A stretch of DNA of 64,000 bases from a bacterium (lineage in GTDB: Bacteria; SZUA-79; Acidulodesulfobacterales; Acidulodesulfobacteraceae): assembly GCA_021818985.1 (NCBI GenBank), contig JAKASO010000007.1:1-64000 (forward strand), written 5' to 3'. Position numbers and translations under genes: made by a program. Shown in pieces: positions 1,903-10,716 of this stretch (its first letter is position 1; each line of letters starts with the position of its first letter). The notes under the pieces are model-generated. The model saw only the letters and a list, made by a program, of their open reading frames with translations, was not told the DNA's origin and made no database searches.

Positions 1903-3108
1903 ATGAGCAAAAAATATCAAACGCCGCTTTTGGATGAGCTAAAAAAAGGCAAATGGCCCAGTTTTGTTACCGAAATTGAAAGAGCCGCAGAAAAAAGCGA
2001 GATGACCGATGATCTTTTAGGGCAGGTTGAACAGTCCTACAAGGAAAGAATGGGTCATTGGAAGCATGGGGGAATGGTGGGTGTTAAAGGCTACGGAGGT
2101 GGCATTGTTGGCAGGTTTTCGGATCTGCCGGAGAAATATCCGGGCGTAAAGGAATTTCATACGATAAGAATTAATCAGCCGTCAGGCTTTTTTTATACAT
2201 CCGATATTCTGAGAAAGATAGTGGATATAGGGGATAAGCATGCCTCCAGCCTTTATAACTTTCATGGATCAACCGGCGATATTCAGATGCTTGGCGTAAA
2301 AACATCGGAACTTGAAACTATCTTTCAACAATTAGTGTCATTTGGATTTGATCTTGGAGGCAGCGGTTCCGCATTAAGAACGCCTTCATGCTGTGTCGGC
2401 ATGGCAAGATGTGAATTTGCCAATTATGATGCCATGAATATTTGTTACAATATTACTCAGGCTTTTCAGGACGAGATGCACAGGCCGATCTTCAATTATA
2501 AATTTAAGTTCAAATTTTCCGGTTGCGGCAACGATTGCACTGCATCTATTGCAAGGGCAGACCTGTCCGTTATAGGAACATGGAAGGACAATATAAGAAT
2601 AGACCAGGACATGGTGAAAGAATATGCAAAAAAGATGAATCTGCATAAATATGTTACCAGTAAATGTCCTACAAAATGTATGAGTTATGGCGAAACCGGT
2701 CTTAAGATTGACGATTCAAACTGTTCAAAATGTATGCATTGTATAAATGTAATGCCTAAAGCCTTGCGTCCTGGTGTTAAGGGAGGAGCGACTATCCTTC
2801 TCGGGTCAAAAGCACCTATGGTTTCCGGTCCCCGTCTTTCAATGGTTCTTGTCCCGTTTTACGATGTAGCTGAAGATGCCAAAAACGGATATCAATGGTT
2901 CAGGGATCTTATCGGAAAAATATGGGAATTCTGGGATGAATACGGCGTCAGCAGGGAGAGGGTAGGGGAATTGATCCAGAGAGTTGGTATAGGCAACTTT
3001 CTTGAGGCTATAGGACTTGAACCGCTTCCCGAAATGGTTTCTAGCCCAAGGGGAAACCCGTTTGTATTATATGAAGACTATGTGGAAGTGGATGGAGAGC
3101 AAGGATGA
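1903..3108 (+). CDS. dsrA: Dissimilatory sulfite reductase, alpha subunit
   Basis: DsrA forms the cytoplasmic alpha2beta2 siroheme enzyme with DsrB and reduces sulfite in the last stage of sulfate respiration. The cluster motif C-x5-C (Cys164, Cys170) and the C-x3-C motif (Cys208, Cys212) are intact. An inserted ferredoxin-type domain follows, with Cys255/259 and Cys274/277/280. At 401 residues it is at the short end for DsrA. A strong AAGGAGG precedes the ATG. It is followed by dsrB and dsrD, which points to the reductive type. The gap to dsrB is unusually long (228 nt). Confidence 0.97.
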   Translation: MSKKYQTPLLDELKKGKWPSFVTEIERAAEKSEMTDDLLGQVEQSYKERMGHWKHGGMVGVKGYGGGIVGRFSDLPEKYPGVKEFHTIRINQPSGFFYTSDILRKIVDIGDKHASSLYNFHGSTGDIQMLGVKTSELETIFQQLVSFGFDLGGSGSALRTPSCCVGMARCEFANYDAMNICYNITQAFQDEMHRPIFNYKFKFKFSGCGNDCTASIARADLSVIGTWKDNIRIDQDMVKEYAKKMNLHKYVTSKCPTKCMSYGETGLKIDDSNCSKCMHCINVMPKALRPGVKGGATILLGSKAPMVSGPRLSMVLVPFYDVAEDAKNGYQWFRDLIGKIWEFWDEYGVSRERVGELIQRVGIGNFLEAIGLEPLPEMVSSPRGNPFVLYEDYVEVDGEQG

Positions 3109-3336: not shown

Positions 3337-4422
3337 ATGCCTGATGTTTCCGGAACAAAAAGAATTACCGATGTCGGTCCTCATGATTATCATGACTTCT
3401 TGCATCCGGTTATTAAAAACAATTATGGAAAGTGGAAATATCACGAAATTTTAAGTCCTGCCCATATGGTCCATGTTTCAGAGGCCGGCGATAAGATTTA
3501 CTCTGTCAGGGTCGGTTCTCCAAGACTTGTCAGCGGGTTTTTCATAAGGGATTTATGTGACCTTGCCGATAAATATACCGGGGGGTATCTTAGATTTACA
3601 ACAAGAAATAATGTTGAGTTTTTGCTCGACAAAGAAGAAAATATAGAGCCGCTGATGAATGATATTAAAAAATTAAATCTTCCTTTAGGCGGCATAGGAA
3701 ATGTCGTTGCAAATATTGTTCATACGCAGGGGTGGATACACTGCCATACAGCGGCTTCAGATGCGTCAGGAGTGACCAAAGCGCTTATGGACGACCTTTA
3801 CGAATATTATATAGATGCCAAGCTGCCGGCAAAAGTGAGAATAGCTTTCGCATGCTGTCTCAATATGTGCGGGGCGGTTCACTGTTCGGATATTGCGGTG
3901 CTGGGCATACACAGAAGACCGCCGAAGTTGGTCCCGGACAAGATAATAAATCTCTGCGAAATTCCAAGCACCATAGCATCGTGTCCCACCAATGCGATCA
4001 GACCGGATACATATAACGGGAAGCCAAACGTGAAGCTTATCGAAGAGGCGTGCGTTTTCTGCGGCAACTGTTTTACGGTTTGTTCCGGCATGCCGATCTC
4101 TGATCCTTTGAACGACGGCGTATCTATATGGGTAGGAGGCAAGGTATCCAATGCCAGAACCAAACCTTCATTCTCAAAGCTTGCCGTGCCGTATCTGGAA
4201 AATGATCCGCCGCGCTGGCCAAAGGTTGTAGAAGCCGTTAAAACGATACTCGATGCTTACAAAAACGGTGCAGAGAAAGGGGAAAGGGTCGGAGAATGGA
4301 TCGAAAGAATAGGCTGGCCCAAATTTTTTAATATTACGGGATTTAAATTTACAAAATATCATATTGATGATTTCAGACTGGGTGAGGCAACAATGAACTA
4401 CTCCGCCCAGGTAAGACAATAG
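3337..4422 (+). CDS. dsrB: Dissimilatory sulfite reductase, beta subunit
   Basis: DsrB supplies the catalytic siroheme-[4Fe-4S] site of the DsrAB complex. The expected cysteines are present: Cys136, the CC pair at 173-174 and Cys178. The inserted ferredoxin domain has Cys216 and then Cys239/242/245/249. Its 361 residues are a usual length. A strong ribosome binding site AGGAGG precedes the ATG. It is followed within 40 nt by dsrD. Confidence 0.97.
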
Positions 4423-4457
4423 TATTTTTTTATGGTTTTATGATACGGAGGCTTAAA

Positions 4458-4688
4458 ATGACGGATGAAACTAAGGCTCAATTAGAAGAAGCCATTGTTA
4501 ATCTTATTAAGGAGTTTACAAATAGAAAAAGGTTTAAACCCGGTGATATAGTTAAGGAAATGGAGATGAAATTTTCGGCGAGTGGTATTACAAAAGACGA
4601 TATTAAAATCGCCATTAGGGATCTTACCGATTCCGGCCGTTTGATCTATGGTTATGCCGGGGGAAGTTTTCTTTCGCTGCCGGAGTAA
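4458..4688 (+). CDS. dsrD: DsrD, activator of sulfite reductase
   Basis: DsrD is a small winged-helix protein found mainly with reductive-type dsrAB and reported to stimulate DsrAB activity. This copy is 76 residues, and its sequence (ending near YGYAGGSFLSLPE) matches the family. The ATG at 4458 was chosen over an in-frame ATG at 4440 because the ACGGAGG ribosome binding site lies between the two. Its position right after dsrB is the classical arrangement. Confidence 0.93.
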   Translation: MTDETKAQLEEAIVNLIKEFTNRKRFKPGDIVKEMEMKFSASGITKDDIKIAIRDLTDSGRLIYGYAGGSFLSLPE

Positions 4689-4859: not shown

Positions 4860-6554
4860 ATGGCTGTTGAGATTAAAAAAATAAAAAGAGCAATCGGTGG
4901 CAGGCAGTTCGGGGTATCCAGCGTCATGGAGCAGTCTACCCTGCGCCCCAGCTATGTCGAAAAAAAGCCTCCCTGCATGGACAGTTGTCCTAGCAGCGAA
5001 AAAATAAGGGAGTATTTGCAGTATGTTGCCCAGGGTGAAGCATACGGCAGGGAGATAAACGAGTCAATAAAAGAGGGGTTTTATATACTTACTGATACAA
5101 ATCCCCTTCCGGCGGTTATGGGACGGGTCTGTCCTCATCCATGCGAGACGTCATGCAACAGGGCGGTAAAAGACAAAGCCGTTGCAATAAATGCCGTTGA
5201 GATGTTTATCGGAGATTTCGGGATTGAAAATAAACTGCCGTTGAGAAAACTTACGGATGAAAAAAGGAAGGAAAAGATTGCCGTTGTCGGCAGCGGACCG
5301 GCAGGGTTAAGCTGTGCTTATCAGCTTGCAAGAAGGGGCTATAATATTACTATTTTTGAAAAGTTAGAAAAGGCGGGAGGCATGCTCCGTTACGGAATAC
5401 CATATTTTCGCCTTCCCGAAAATGTTCTTGATGCGGAAATTGACAGGATAAGGGATCTTGGAGTTGAATTCGTATTTAATTCTCCCGTCGGAAAAGACCT
5501 GACACTTGAACGTCTCAAAAAAGAATTTGATGCGGTTTTTATCGGTATAGGGGCATATAACAATATAGCGCTTAACATAAATGAATCAAACCTGTCAAAT
5601 GTTTTCAGCGGGATCGAGTTTTTAAAGCGTGTCAACAGTGGCGAGATGCCCGACCTTGGTCCGCATGTTATAGTTATCGGGGGAGGGGATTCCGCAATGG
5701 ACTGTGCAAGAACAGCCCTCAGACTGCCGACGACGGAAAAAGTAACGGTCGTTTACAGAAGGGGCAGGGAACAGATGCCCGCAAATCCTGAAGAAGTTAT
5801 TACCGCTGCCTCCGAAGGGGTTAGTTTTGAATTTATGGCCGCCCCGGTTAATGTCAATATAAACGAAAAGGGCGATAGAGCTTTATCCGTTGTTTTTCAG
5901 AAAACAAGGCTGAGCGAAAAAGATGCTTCGGGCAGGGCGCAGTTTATTATGGTGGAGACCGATCCCCGGTTTACTATCGAATGTTCGGCGCTGATAGCTT
6001 CTCTTGGGCAGAAGCCTGATTTTTCGGGTCTCGAAGATATAAGTAAAAATTTAAAGAGAGGGTATCTGAATATCAACGATAAAGGCTTGATAGACGAAGA
6101 AGAAAGTGTTTTTGCCGGAGGGGACGCAATAGGGTTCTGGCTTGTAACCCAGGCGATCGGTTCCGGAAATTCCGCCGCCTTTTCGATACATGAAAAATTA
6201 AGCGGCGAACCTGTGCCGGCGGATACAAGGCAGATCATAGACTATAAGGATATGCACTTGGAATTTTATGAACCGATGGAAAGGCAAGAAAGGCGGACAA
6301 GGAAAATAACCGAAGTAAAAAACGACTTTCAGCCGGCTGTTTATGGATTATCTGAAGAAGAATTTGTGTGGGAAGCCAAAAGATGCCTGAGTTGCGGCTT
6401 ATGTTACGACTGTGGGAACTGTTTTATGTATTGCTCCAAGGGCTGCGTAAAAATGCTTCAAAAAGGACTACATTATGAATTTCATTTAGAAACATGCAAC
6501 GGCTGCGCTAAATGCTTTGAAAGCTGTCCTTGCGGTTGTATCATAATGAGTTAA
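4860..6554 (+). CDS. dsrL: DsrL-type NAD(P)H:acceptor oxidoreductase
   Basis: This is an iron-sulfur flavoprotein of the glutamate-synthase small-subunit family (GltD-like). It has N-terminal cluster cysteines (39, 43, 91, 95, 99), an FAD site GSGPAG at 144-149, a second dinucleotide site with GGGDSAMDCA for NAD(P)H, and two C-terminal [4Fe-4S] motifs. The ferredoxin-like tail and the position between dsrD and the dsrC-like gene support DsrL, which exchanges electrons between NAD(P)(H) and DsrAB. It is shorter (564 residues) than DsrL of phototrophic sulfur oxidisers (about 650). DsrL is unusual beside DsrD. In this setting it probably delivers electrons from NAD(P)H to sulfite reduction. A generic GltD-like protein is the alternative. 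Confidence 0.82.
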   Translation: MAVEIKKIKRAIGGRQFGVSSVMEQSTLRPSYVEKKPPCMDSCPSSEKIREYLQYVAQGEAYGREINESIKEGFYILTDTNPLPAVMGRVCPHPCETSCNRAVKDKAVAINAVEMFIGDFGIENKLPLRKLTDEKRKEKIAVVGSGPAGLSCAYQLARRGYNITIFEKLEKAGGMLRYGIPYFRLPENVLDAEIDRIRDLGVEFVFNSPVGKDLTLERLKKEFDAVFIGIGAYNNIALNINESNLSNVFSGIEFLKRVNSGEMPDLGPHVIVIGGGDSAMDCARTALRLPTTEKVTVVYRRGREQMPANPEEVITAASEGVSFEFMAAPVNVNINEKGDRALSVVFQKTRLSEKDASGRAQFIMVETDPRFTIECSALIASLGQKPDFSGLEDISKNLKRGYLNINDKGLIDEEESVFAGGDAIGFWLVTQAIGSGNSAAFSIHEKLSGEPVPADTRQIIDYKDMHLEFYEPMERQERRTRKITEVKNDFQPAVYGLSEEEFVWEAKRCLSCGLCYDCGNCFMYCSKGCVKMLQKGLHYEFHLETCNGCAKCFESCPCGCIIMS

Positions 6555-6625: not shown

Positions 6626-6967
6626 ATGCCGTCTTTTGCATTTAATGGTAAGACAATTGAAACCGACGATGAAGGTTATCTGCAGATTCTTGACAACTGG
6701 AACAAAGAGATAGCCGAATATCTTGCCAAAGAGGAAGGAATTACGCTTACGGAAAAGCATTGGGAATTAATCGAATGGGTAAGGGACTATTTTTTTAAAT
6801 TTCAGGTTGCTCCTGCGATTAAATCTCTTATAAAAGAAGTGGGAAAGCTTGAAAATTTACCTGATAAAAAGGAGGCGAATAAGTTCATTTATGAACTTTT
6901 TCCAGAAGGTCCCGCTAAGCAGCTTGCCAAAATAGCAGGTCTTCCAAAACCTACGGGTTGCGTATAA
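6626..6967 (+). CDS. dsrC: DsrC/TusE-family protein lacking the second redox cysteine
   Basis: DsrC carries sulfite-derived sulfur as a trisulfide between two C-terminal cysteines and passes it to the membrane. This 113-residue protein has the family fold signature (KHWELIEWVRDYFFKF) and the C-terminal arm ending GLPKPTGCV, with CysA at 112. The CysB position, eleven residues earlier, is Ala101 in the sequence KQLAKIAG instead of the usual KQACKIAG. By that criterion it is TusE-like. It sits in the dsr operon behind an AGGAGG site, and dsrEFH follow downstream. Either the trisulfide cycle uses another DsrC elsewhere or this copy acts in sulfur relay. Confidence 0.85.
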   Translation: MPSFAFNGKTIETDDEGYLQILDNWNKEIAEYLAKEEGITLTEKHWELIEWVRDYFFKFQVAPAIKSLIKEVGKLENLPDKKEANKFIYELFPEGPAKQLAKIAGLPKPTGCV

Positions 6968-7127: not shown

Positions 7128-7889
7128 ATGTTTGATTTAAACTTCATAAGCGGCGTGTATGTTTTTTTAACTTATCTTGCGGGAGTTATTTTCATACTTG
7201 GCGTTGCACTGAGAATAGTCGTGTATGCCAGGACGCCGATGCCGGTAAAAATTCCCCTTACTCCTGCCCCCCTGACTCCGATGGGCGCTACCGGCAGGGT
7301 TGCAAGCGAGGTTTTATTATTTAAGAGTTTATACCGGGCAAATAAGCCTACGTGGGTTGCCGGATATATTTTTCATATTTCGTTTTTTCTGCTTATATTG
7401 CTGCATTTTGCGCGTCATTTCGTTTACCATCATCCGCTGCCTTCCTGGTATCAGCTCTTTGTTAATGTCGGCATAATTTGCGGTATCTTAATGGTTCTTT
7501 CATTATTTTACCTGCTTCTTCGCAGGATGATCGTTGACAGAGTGAGAATTATTTCCCTTTTTTCGGATTATTTAATACTTATTATTTTAATGATGATCGC
7601 TGTTGCAGGATTATCGTTGAATTTTTTTATCTCCGCCTCCGCTCTTACAAAGATTGACAACAGACTTGATCCGTTTATTACCGATATCGCCGCATTCCAT
7701 CCTATAAATATTCCGAGTAACCCATATTTTCTCGTTCATTATTCATTGACCCTTTTACTTATTGCATATATACCCTTCAGCAAAGTGATGCATTTTGTGG
7801 GCATATTTTTCAGTCCTACCCGTTATATGACGGATAATCCGCAAGAAGAAAGATATTACAAGCCGGATGCCGAAGATTTAAGCCTTTGA
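7128..7889 (+). CDS. dsrM: DsrM, cytochrome b membrane subunit
   Basis: DsrM is the NarI-like cytochrome b that links the menaquinone pool to DsrK at the cytoplasmic membrane. The 253-residue protein has about five hydrophobic segments (near 8-28, 78-98, 112-132, 145-168, 203-225). Candidate heme-ligand histidines lie in FHISFF, FARHFVYHH, LVHYS and KVMHFVG, and it ends in the family motif FFSPTRYM. It is followed after 38 nt by dsrK. It is shorter than DsrM of deltaproteobacteria with the full DsrMKJOP complex (about 330), in keeping with a DsrMK-only module. Confidence 0.9.
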   Translation: MFDLNFISGVYVFLTYLAGVIFILGVALRIVVYARTPMPVKIPLTPAPLTPMGATGRVASEVLLFKSLYRANKPTWVAGYIFHISFFLLILLHFARHFVYHHPLPSWYQLFVNVGIICGILMVLSLFYLLLRRMIVDRVRIISLFSDYLILIILMMIAVAGLSLNFFISASALTKIDNRLDPFITDIAAFHPINIPSNPYFLVHYSLTLLLIAYIPFSKVMHFVGIFFSPTRYMTDNPQEERYYKPDAEDLSL

Positions 7890-7927: not shown

Positions 7928-9418
7928 ATGGCTAAAACAAAAGCAGCCTATAAAGTTCCCATATTGACAGGAGAGATCAAGATTCCTAAAGTTGTTTCGG
8001 GTATAAGCGCTTATGAAAAGATGTATCAGGGCGAAAAGGACGATATGGTTGCGCTCGGTTTTCCCGCATCGCTGGAAGAAGGTTGGGAAATTAAAGCAGT
8101 GGGGATCTTTAAGCAGCTTTTAAGCCACAATAAAGCTCTCAGGGATTACATGGATATCTGCGTCAGGTGCGGTGCATGCACCGATAAATGCCAGTTTTTT
8201 CTTGGTACGGGTGATTCAAATAACATGCCTGTTGGTAGGGCTGAATTAATGAGGAAGGTCTACAGGTACTATTTTACACCCGCAGGAAGCCTTTTTAAAG
8301 GTCTGGCTGACGCCGAGCCTTTTAGCGAGGAGATGCTTAAAAAGTGGTTTACTTACTACTATCAATGTTCGGAATGCAGGCGGTGTTCTTATTACTGTCC
8401 TTACGGGATAGATACGGCGGTGATAACGATGGCTGCGAGGGAAATTATGGACGGCATAGGTCTTGGACAAAAATATTCTACCGTTATAATACATAAGGTA
8501 TTTAATACAGGGAACAATATCGGTATTCCGCAGGCTGCGCTCCGAAATACCCTTGATGACTTAGAAGAAGAAATAAATGAGGAAACCGGAAAAGATGTTA
8601 AAATACCTATGGACGTAGAAGGTGCAGAAGTTCTTTTAGTACCGCCTTCAGCCGATTTTTTTGCAATGCCCCATATGGAATCTCTTAAAGGATATGCAAA
8701 GGTATTTTATAAAGCAGGCGTCAGTTGGACGGTTTCTTCTTATGCATCAGAAGCCGCTAATTTTGGCATGTTCATCGGGAGTTACCGGAATACTAAAGAA
8801 CTAAATAAACGGATATGGGATGAAGCAAGAAGGCTTAAAGTAAAGAGGGTTGTGGTAGGTGAATGCGGTCATGCCTGGAGGGCTATGTATAATTACAGCA
8901 ATACGATGAACGGTCCGTTCGATTTTCTCGATAACAAATACAGGCAGCCGACCCATATCTGCGATTTTACGCTCGGGCTTATCAAAGACGGGGTTATTAA
9001 GGTGGATCCATCGGCAAACGATGATAAAATAATTACATATCATGATTCATGCAATATTGCGCGGGGATCAAGAATTGGCGAAATACCCGGAGGCCAGTTT
9101 ACTATTCCGAGGGAACTTATAAAAGCGTGCGCGAATAATTTTTATGAATTAAGGAACGGAACTAATAAAGCGGAAACTTACTGCTGCGGTGCCGGCGGCG
9201 GAATACTGACCGATGAAGTAATGAATGTAAGAATTGCCGGTTCAATGGCCAAAATGCAAACTATCAAGGAGGTAATGGACAATAAAGGCGTGAATTTCCT
9301 TGCATTGATATGCGCAATTTGTAAGACCCAGTTTGCGAAAATGTATCAGTTATACGGTTTCGATGCGGAAATGGTGGGAGGTATTCACCAGCTTGTGAGT
9401 TCCGCTATAATTCTGTGA
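7928..9418 (+). CDS. dsrK: DsrK, heterodisulfide reductase-like iron-sulfur subunit
   Basis: DsrK resembles HdrD and is thought to reduce the DsrC trisulfide with electrons from DsrM. Two [4Fe-4S] ferredoxin motifs occur at Cys78/81/84/88 and Cys147/150/153/157. C-terminal CCG-type elements (YHDSCN and YCCGAGGG) form the catalytic cluster site. The length of 496 residues is normal to slightly short. No dsrJ, dsrO or dsrP follows, since the next genes are dsrEFH. The ribosome binding site is AGGAGA. Confidence 0.93.
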   Translation: MAKTKAAYKVPILTGEIKIPKVVSGISAYEKMYQGEKDDMVALGFPASLEEGWEIKAVGIFKQLLSHNKALRDYMDICVRCGACTDKCQFFLGTGDSNNMPVGRAELMRKVYRYYFTPAGSLFKGLADAEPFSEEMLKKWFTYYYQCSECRRCSYYCPYGIDTAVITMAAREIMDGIGLGQKYSTVIIHKVFNTGNNIGIPQAALRNTLDDLEEEINEETGKDVKIPMDVEGAEVLLVPPSADFFAMPHMESLKGYAKVFYKAGVSWTVSSYASEAANFGMFIGSYRNTKELNKRIWDEARRLKVKRVVVGECGHAWRAMYNYSNTMNGPFDFLDNKYRQPTHICDFTLGLIKDGVIKVDPSANDDKIITYHDSCNIARGSRIGEIPGGQFTIPRELIKACANNFYELRNGTNKAETYCCGAGGGILTDEVMNVRIAGSMAKMQTIKEVMDNKGVNFLALICAICKTQFAKMYQLYGFDAEMVGGIHQLVSSAIIL

Positions 9419-9551: not shown

Positions 9552-9902
9552 ATGAAATTCGGTATACTATTAAAGGAAAGTCCTTATAATTATCAGGCTT
9601 TCGACAGCGTTTATAATTTTGCCAATGCCGCACTGGAAATGGGTCATGAGATCATAGGCATATTCTTTTACGACGATGCCGTGTATGTAGGCAACAAATA
9701 TTTGGAGCCACCTCAGGGTGAGAGAAACATAAAATCGTATATACACGCTCTAAAATCAAAAGGGGTTAGATTGGTTATTTGTGTTGCTGCCGGAAAAAGA
9801 AGGGGGCTGACGCAGAACACGGTAAGCGAATCCGCAGAGATATCCGGTCTAGGACAGCTTCTTGAACTGTCAATAGAATCCGACAGACTAATAACCTTTT
9901 AA
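9552..9902 (+). CDS. dsrE: DsrE (TusD-like) sulfurtransferase subunit
   Basis: DsrE is the persulfide-carrying subunit of the DsrE2F2H2 hexamer, which hands sulfur to DsrC-type proteins. The 116-residue protein keeps the family core FFYDDAVYVGNKYLEPPQ and the active-site cysteine in VICVAAGKRRG (Cys77), equivalent to the essential Cys of known DsrE. A strong GGGAGG precedes the start. dsrF and dsrH follow in the usual order. The set is typical of sulfur oxidisers and of tRNA-thiolation relays, and is uncommon next to dsrD. Confidence 0.9.
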   Translation: MKFGILLKESPYNYQAFDSVYNFANAALEMGHEIIGIFFYDDAVYVGNKYLEPPQGERNIKSYIHALKSKGVRLVICVAAGKRRGLTQNTVSESAEISGLGQLLELSIESDRLITF

Positions 9903-9952: not shown

Positions 9953-10324
9953 ATGAAAGATCAAAAGGCAAAAATTATGTTTGTATGCAGGACCGCTCCT
10001 TACGGCACTATTTATGAGCAGGAAGCTATAGAAGCAATGATTATGTTCAGCTCATACGAACAGGACATCAGTGTTGCTTTTATCGGGGATGGGGTTTTTT
10101 CTTTAAAAAAAGGACAGGATCCTTCCTTAATAAATATCAAAAATTTTACTCAGACATATCTTGTTCTTAAAGACGATTTCGAAATTTCTCATTTATATGT
10201 CGAGAAAGAATCGCTTGAAGAAAGAGGGGTAAGAGAAGAAGATCTCCTTGCCGAGGTCGAAGTAATACCCAGAGCCGAGCTAAGAAACAAAATAGACGAG
10301 ATGAAGGTTTTATTGCCGTTCTAA
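9953..10324 (+). CDS. dsrF: DsrF (TusC-like) subunit
   Basis: DsrF is the non-catalytic middle subunit of the DsrEFH hexamer. The 123-residue sequence starts with the family pattern KIMFVCRTAPYGTIYEQEAIEA and keeps GDGVFSLKKGQ, which matches TusC/DsrF proteins. AGGAGA precedes the ATG, 50 nt after dsrE. Its identity is supported by the flanking dsrE and dsrH genes. Confidence 0.88.
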   Translation: MKDQKAKIMFVCRTAPYGTIYEQEAIEAMIMFSSYEQDISVAFIGDGVFSLKKGQDPSLINIKNFTQTYLVLKDDFEISHLYVEKESLEERGVREEDLLAEVEVIPRAELRNKIDEMKVLLPF

Positions 10325-10416: not shown

Positions 10417-10716
10417 ATGCTTAACATAATAAAGAAATCCCCTTATGAATCGTCTGCTTTAAGTGATTGTCTTAAATATATAAAAAGCGGCGATGTTATT
10501 CTTTTTACTGAAGATGGAATTTATGCCGTAAAAAAAGAAGGAGCGTTTGGAAAACTTGTTTCCGATGCTTCGCAAACCTGTGCGGTATATTATCTGTTTC
10601 CTGATGCTGAAGCAAGAGGCATTAAAAGCGAAGAGGTAATTTCTTTGGCTAAACCAGTAGATTATAAAGGTTTTGTTGATCTTGTGGGCGATTCTTTAAA
10701 ATCCATGACATGGTGA
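10417..10716 (+). CDS. dsrH: DsrH (TusB-like) subunit
   Basis: DsrH is the smallest DsrEFH subunit. This 99-residue protein begins MLNIIKKSPYES and contains the segment GDVILFTEDGIYAV, both typical of the TusB/DsrH family. GAGGTAAGG precedes the start. It closes the dsr gene run, and a terminator-like hairpin overlaps its stop codon. Confidence 0.87.
   Translation: MLNIIKKSPYESSALSDCLKYIKSGDVILFTEDGIYAVKKEGAFGKLVSDASQTCAVYYLFPDAEARGIKSEEVISLAKPVDYKGFVDLVGDSLKSMTW

Follow-up and report, generated by a model that had tools for sequence, protein, structure and literature searches.

Can a dissimilatory sulfite reductase operon work with a DsrC that has lost its second redox cysteine? The two cysteines of DsrC are used to separate the true protein from TusE, and the accepted account of how sulfite reduction is coupled to energy conservation centres on them. 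One of them, CysB, is thought to close a trisulfide, which is then reduced by DsrMK. In the window, the whole stretch of 64,000 nucleotides analysed here, a dsr operon encodes a DsrC with a single cysteine. An earlier note on this DNA suggested either that a second true DsrC is encoded elsewhere in the genome or that sulfur from sulfite is handled differently, and it implied that this copy could instead be a TusE.

The dsrC gene and the dsr operon of the window

The operon genes and the codon in question are as follows.

1903..3108, + strand: dsrA, sulfite reductase alpha (TIGR02064, 499 bits, above cut-off)
3337..4422, + strand: dsrB, sulfite reductase beta (TIGR02066, 480 bits, above cut-off)
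4440..4688, + strand: dsrD-like small protein, 82 residues (position, and conservation in SZUA-79 and Desulfurella operons)
4860..6554, + strand: dsrL, DsrL-2 type, with a YRR motif at residues 299-301 (NF009410, 576 bits; motif alignment)
6626..6967, + strand: dsrC, one-cysteine form, 113 residues (open reading frame, PF04358/TIGR03342, alignment to solved DsrC, AlphaFold)
6926..6928, + strand: Ala101 codon gcc, the CysB site of two-cysteine DsrC (sequence; GCC, GCT or GCA in relatives)
7128..7889, + strand: dsrM, membrane cytochrome b subunit (NF038037, 110 bits, below its cut-off; PF02665)
7928..9418, + strand: dsrK, HdrD-like catalytic subunit (NF045796, 506 bits, above cut-off; motif alignment)
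9552..9902, + strand: dsrE, TusD-like sulfurtransferase subunit, active-site Cys of VICVAAG kept (TIGR03012, 101 bits; PF02635)
9953..10324, + strand: dsrF, TusC-like (TIGR03010, 113 bits)
10417..10716, + strand: dsrH, TusB-like (TIGR03011, 82 bits; PF04077)

The dsrC frame starts with ATG, and the C-terminal end of its product reads GPAKQLAKIAGLPKPTGCV. The penultimate residue, Cys112, is CysA and the only cysteine of the chain. In dissimilatory DsrC, CysB lies eleven residues before CysA and is held to mark organisms with dsrAB (PMC3397948). At this position of the window protein we find Ala101, encoded by gcc, which aligns exactly under CysB of the A. vinosum (1yx3), A. fulgidus (1sau) and other solved DsrC structures. 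The reading frame, the alignment and the lone cysteine thus bear out the note's observation that CysA is present and CysB is replaced by alanine.

The remainder of the protein is that of a DsrC. Over its whole length it matches PF04358 (137.5 bits, cut-off 24.9) and TIGR03342 (138.1 bits, cut-off 53.5). The AlphaFold model has a pLDDT of 91, which is low at the last three residues only, and its nearest folds in the PDB are DsrC of A. vinosum and A. fulgidus (TM 0.84-0.86; about 50% sequence identity to each), indicating that the loss is limited to the arm. With canonical DsrC, including D. vulgaris 2v4j, the window protein shares the fold (TM 0.74-0.86), the GLPKPTGCV arm, the penultimate CysA and an operon with dsrAB and dsrMK. 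It differs in having Ala for CysB and no other cysteine.

The gene order dsrN-A-B-D-L-C-M-K-E-F-H is kept across the SZUA-79 relatives. The dsrD-like protein has no match in Pfam or NCBIfam, and every intact relative encodes a homologue of it at this place, after dsrB and before dsrL. In DsrK, the HDxC, CCG and CxxC motifs are all intact. A DsrP-type NrfD protein was not found in the window's own genome, which therefore encodes DsrMK without DsrP. On the 3' side of dsrH, sat, aprB, aprA and then qmoABC-like genes complete the sulfate-reduction set; aprA and the qmo genes were assigned from open reading frames and gene order. Meanwhile, we notice that DsrL in the SZUA-79 family occurs in two forms, one with YRR (the window and loci L071-L074) and the other with YNK (loci L075-L080). 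YNK has been published as the motif of this order, which is true for the second form only.

Distribution and history of the loss

The window's lineage, Ca. Acidulodesulfobacterales/SZUA-79, has its published description from acid mine drainage, where a reductive-type dsrAB was reported together with dsrD, dsrL and dsrEFH (PMC6776010). Candidatus Acididesulfobacter diazotrophicus AP1 is among the close relatives. In this family, the Ala-type tail is encoded at 25 places in 23 genomes, giving 21 distinct DsrC proteins, and all 21 have Ala at the CysB site and exactly one cysteine in the whole chain. Inspection of the same codon in related genomes, which the note had proposed, returned alanine every time, by synonymous codons (GCC 10, GCT 8, GCA 6) within 22 distinct 51-nt arm sequences. 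The alanine is fixed across six genera, and the rest of the arm is strictly conserved, Cys112 included. No cysteine elsewhere in the SZUA-79 DsrC compensates for the loss. As for a second true DsrC, the window's own genome (1.62 Mb, 100% complete) contains no other PF04358 (DsrC/TusE) protein, and no two-cysteine form is present in the family genomes examined, so that this suggestion falls.

Two observations concern individual assemblies. Genomes G018 (contigs C108 and C168) and G024 (C18 and C101) each hold two dsrC copies of different sub-lineages on separate contigs, reflecting either two operons or a mixed bin. The dsrA match contains an in-frame TAG in G014, G018 (copy 2), G020 (also a TAA), G021, G023, G024 and G028, probably close to where the model ends.

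Outside the SZUA-79 family, a tail pattern with Ala, Ser, Thr or Pro at CysB matched in 0 of 356 genomes. A DsrC homologue is present in 25 of 26 sampled non-family genomes with dsrA; of the 25, 24 encode a two-cysteine DsrC and the remaining one is a Desulfurella. Relatives found via patterns outside the tail (n=80) have Ala in SZUA-79 and Cys in Nitrospirota, Gammaproteobacteria, archaea and others.

We therefore looked at Desulfurella through three genomes, including D. amilsii TR1 and a probable D. acetivorans A63, together with the related genome G400. In all four, the operon DsrC ends GPARQLVRYAGLSKPTGCV, with Val at the CysB site. Every Desulfurella has one further homologue, which is TusE-like with Ala at this site, so that D. 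amilsii has two homologues and CysB in neither. Its operon runs dsrA-B-D-L-C-M-K, followed by two DsrE-family genes (by a Pfam run on the D. acetivorans copies), a siroheme-synthase-like gene and dsrN. The operon DsrC (DESAMIL20_1431 in D. amilsii by published gene order) shares with its SZUA-79 counterpart the place in the operon, the loss of CysB and the QL[A/V] motif that replaces QAC. It differs in its Val, in the absence of canonical dsrEFH from the dsrABDLCMK operon and in an extra Cys that lies outside the arm, near residue 77, and is absent from G400.

SZUA-79 and Desulfurella form one clade in the trees of DsrC (99/97), DsrAB (100) and DsrK (100). CysB was probably lost once, in the common ancestor of the SZUA-79 and Desulfurella operons. 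Most simply, there was a single loss in the operon ancestor and the operon passed between the two lineages; the site now holds Ala in SZUA-79 and Val in Desulfurella. PMC10504309 had already reported the grouping of SZUA-79 with Desulfurella and their DsrMK lacking JOP, in a text that makes no mention of the cysteine loss.

The dsrK and dsrL frames of the probable D. acetivorans A63 are broken (locus L202, 3848-5318 and 6516-7920, minus strand), and dsrC and dsrM are present. A published comparison gives dsrC, dsrM and dsrK of D. acetivorans as not encoded. The broken frames might represent a natural mutant, fitting the reported inability of this organism to respire thiosulfate, or a sequencing error.

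Proposed sulfide release on a single cysteine

At a probability of about 0.6, we favor the reading that the window protein is a genuine DsrC partner of DsrAB, from an operon clade (SZUA-79 and Desulfurella) that lost the second redox cysteine and reaches sulfide by a persulfide or intermolecular route. Of the note's suggestions, a different handling of sulfite-derived sulfur is the one that survives, by exclusion, and it is strengthened by the fixation of the same loss across the order and in Desulfurella; what that different chemistry may be is proposed here from sequence.

With CysB missing, sulfide is probably released by a variant of the textbook mechanism. As in known systems, DsrAB would load partly reduced sulfur onto CysA (Cys112), forming a persulfide. 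An intramolecular CysA-S-CysB trisulfide is precluded in SZUA-79 by the absence of the second cysteine, so the second thiol would be intermolecular, or the persulfide itself would serve as the substrate. Such a thiol might be donated, before or at DsrMK, by another DsrC, by a DsrE-family protein encoded beside dsrK or by a small thiol. DsrMK would then give the last two electrons, releasing sulfide and regenerating DsrC.

DsrE-family proteins with a candidate active-site cysteine adjoin dsrK in both lineages. In A. vinosum, persulfide and sulfite are bound by CysA alone, which is also the acceptor of sulfur from DsrEFH; CysB is dispensable for that step, and sulfur goes from DsrEFH to DsrC and not back in vitro (PMC3397948). 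This direction weakens a DsrE-family protein as the acceptor; a DsrC dimer and a small thiol are equally open as the source of the second thiol. No clade-specific cysteine that clearly replaces CysB was found in DsrK, DsrM or DsrL. Across these three proteins, DsrA and DsrB, only two positions stand out for cysteines enriched in the one-cysteine clade, both in DsrA: residue 181 (80% vs 7%) and residue 259 (100% vs 39%), for which we have no structural argument. The accessible literature yielded no biochemistry for a one-cysteine DsrC encoded in a dsr operon. The wider proposal, that the whole clade of sulfite reducers makes sulfide via a protein-bound persulfide or intermolecular trisulfide on one-cysteine DsrC, that the substrate reduced by DsrMK is a persulfide or a two-protein species, and that the intramolecular trisulfide is inessential, has in our view slightly less than an even chance.

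The operon could instead be mainly oxidative, with DsrEFH loading Cys112 with sulfane sulfur and DsrAB oxidising it, so that CysB is not needed. The canonical DsrEFH downstream of dsrK, with its active-site Cys, would suit this direction, as would the dispensability of CysB for such loading in A. vinosum (PMC3397948), and Tan et al. proposed that members of this order may use either direction (PMC6776010). However, dsrD and a reductive-type DsrAB are present, and the published oxidative model uses a DsrC trisulfide too. Desulfurella also speaks against it, since it has the same loss without canonical DsrEFH and reportedly lacks APS reductase; DsrAB of D. amilsii seems active in thiosulfate respiration, according to work cited in PMC10504309. 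We consider a mainly oxidative operon unlikely.

Somewhat less likely still is a loss by relaxation, in which DsrL-2 feeds most electrons from NADPH to DsrAB and the DsrC/DsrMK cycle is a minor route of sulfur release. DsrL-2 adjoins dsrC in both lineages, and the D. amilsii protein, which has been purified, is NADPH-specific in vitro (PMC7596348). A relaxed site, however, is hard to reconcile with an arm that is otherwise strictly conserved, Cys112 included, and with an alanine fixed in six genera with no drift. DsrMK, moreover, is kept with all its catalytic cysteines.

DsrC or TusE, and the meaning of the loss

The preferred reading, a DsrC working with DsrAB, has also to be weighed against a TusE that serves tRNA 2-thiolation with the neighbouring DsrEFH (= TusDCB), DsrAB running without any DsrC. 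The window protein carries CysA alone in its arm, as TusE does, and Ala at CysB with TusBCD homologues alongside are features of a Tus system. E. coli TusE and the TusE-like second copies likewise lack CysB (Thr in E. coli, Ala in the others) and have one functional cysteine. Unlike TusE, the window protein is encoded with dsrAB and ends in a TGCV tail instead of VKCI, and it scores 114 bits with the TusE equivalog profile PRK11508, below the cut-off of 191. RspA-like relatives near the dsr clusters of sulfur oxidisers also belong to the DsrC superfamily but are of a different kind, having no arm cysteines, with CysA missing too.

The distribution of the gene was compared with that of dsrA and MnmA. 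Like a dissimilatory DsrC, it is encoded and co-occurs with dsrAB and dsrMK. Of 30 family genomes, 22 have both DsrC and dsrA and six have neither (Fisher p 8e-5). Two are exceptions: in G025 the contig ends inside dsrB, and in G029 the expected dsrA site would fall just past the contig end, judging from the gene spacing of relatives. DsrE tracks the same presence and absence pattern in the family genomes searched. MnmA, with which TusE would be present independently of dsrAB, was found in every family genome searched, including four without dsr, although the match in the incomplete genome G013 is weak; DsrC is absent from the dsr-less genomes that keep MnmA. The protein therefore follows sulfite reductase and not tRNA thiolation.

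In the full-length DsrC tree, the one-cysteine clade joins TusE-like proteins weakly (93/84). When the last 21 residues, which hold the trait, are removed, it joins 29 two-cysteine DsrC (97/87). An AU test on the separation from TusE-like proteins gives p 0.22, which is compatible with either arrangement, and the tree of this 113-residue protein is weakly resolved. In Desulfurella, the operon copy stands in dsrABDLCMK without canonical dsrEFH, beside a separate TusE-like copy. Co-occurrence with dsrA, persistence of MnmA without dsr and the tail-less grouping, together with the conserved operon position, support the identification of the window protein as a true dsr-operon DsrC with CysB lost, and we regard the TusE alternative raised by the note as quite improbable. 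An error in assembly or sequencing at codon 101, for which we found no support, is excluded by three alanine codons at 25 loci in 23 genomes.

The one-cysteine operon DsrC is thus a real, fixed variant of a known protein, also present in a cultured organism. It is apparently undescribed: we found no published mention of the missing cysteine in the accessible literature, and an earlier remark is possible. The dsr operon is retained without CysB in a phylum-level lineage of acidophiles presumed to reduce sulfate, and also in a cultured genus, and the two-cysteine rule therefore fails as an annotation criterion. D. amilsii, which is cultured and from which DsrL has been purified (PMC7596348), makes the need for an intramolecular trisulfide directly testable. 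If our reading is true, the intramolecular DsrC trisulfide would not be essential to dissimilatory sulfite reduction.
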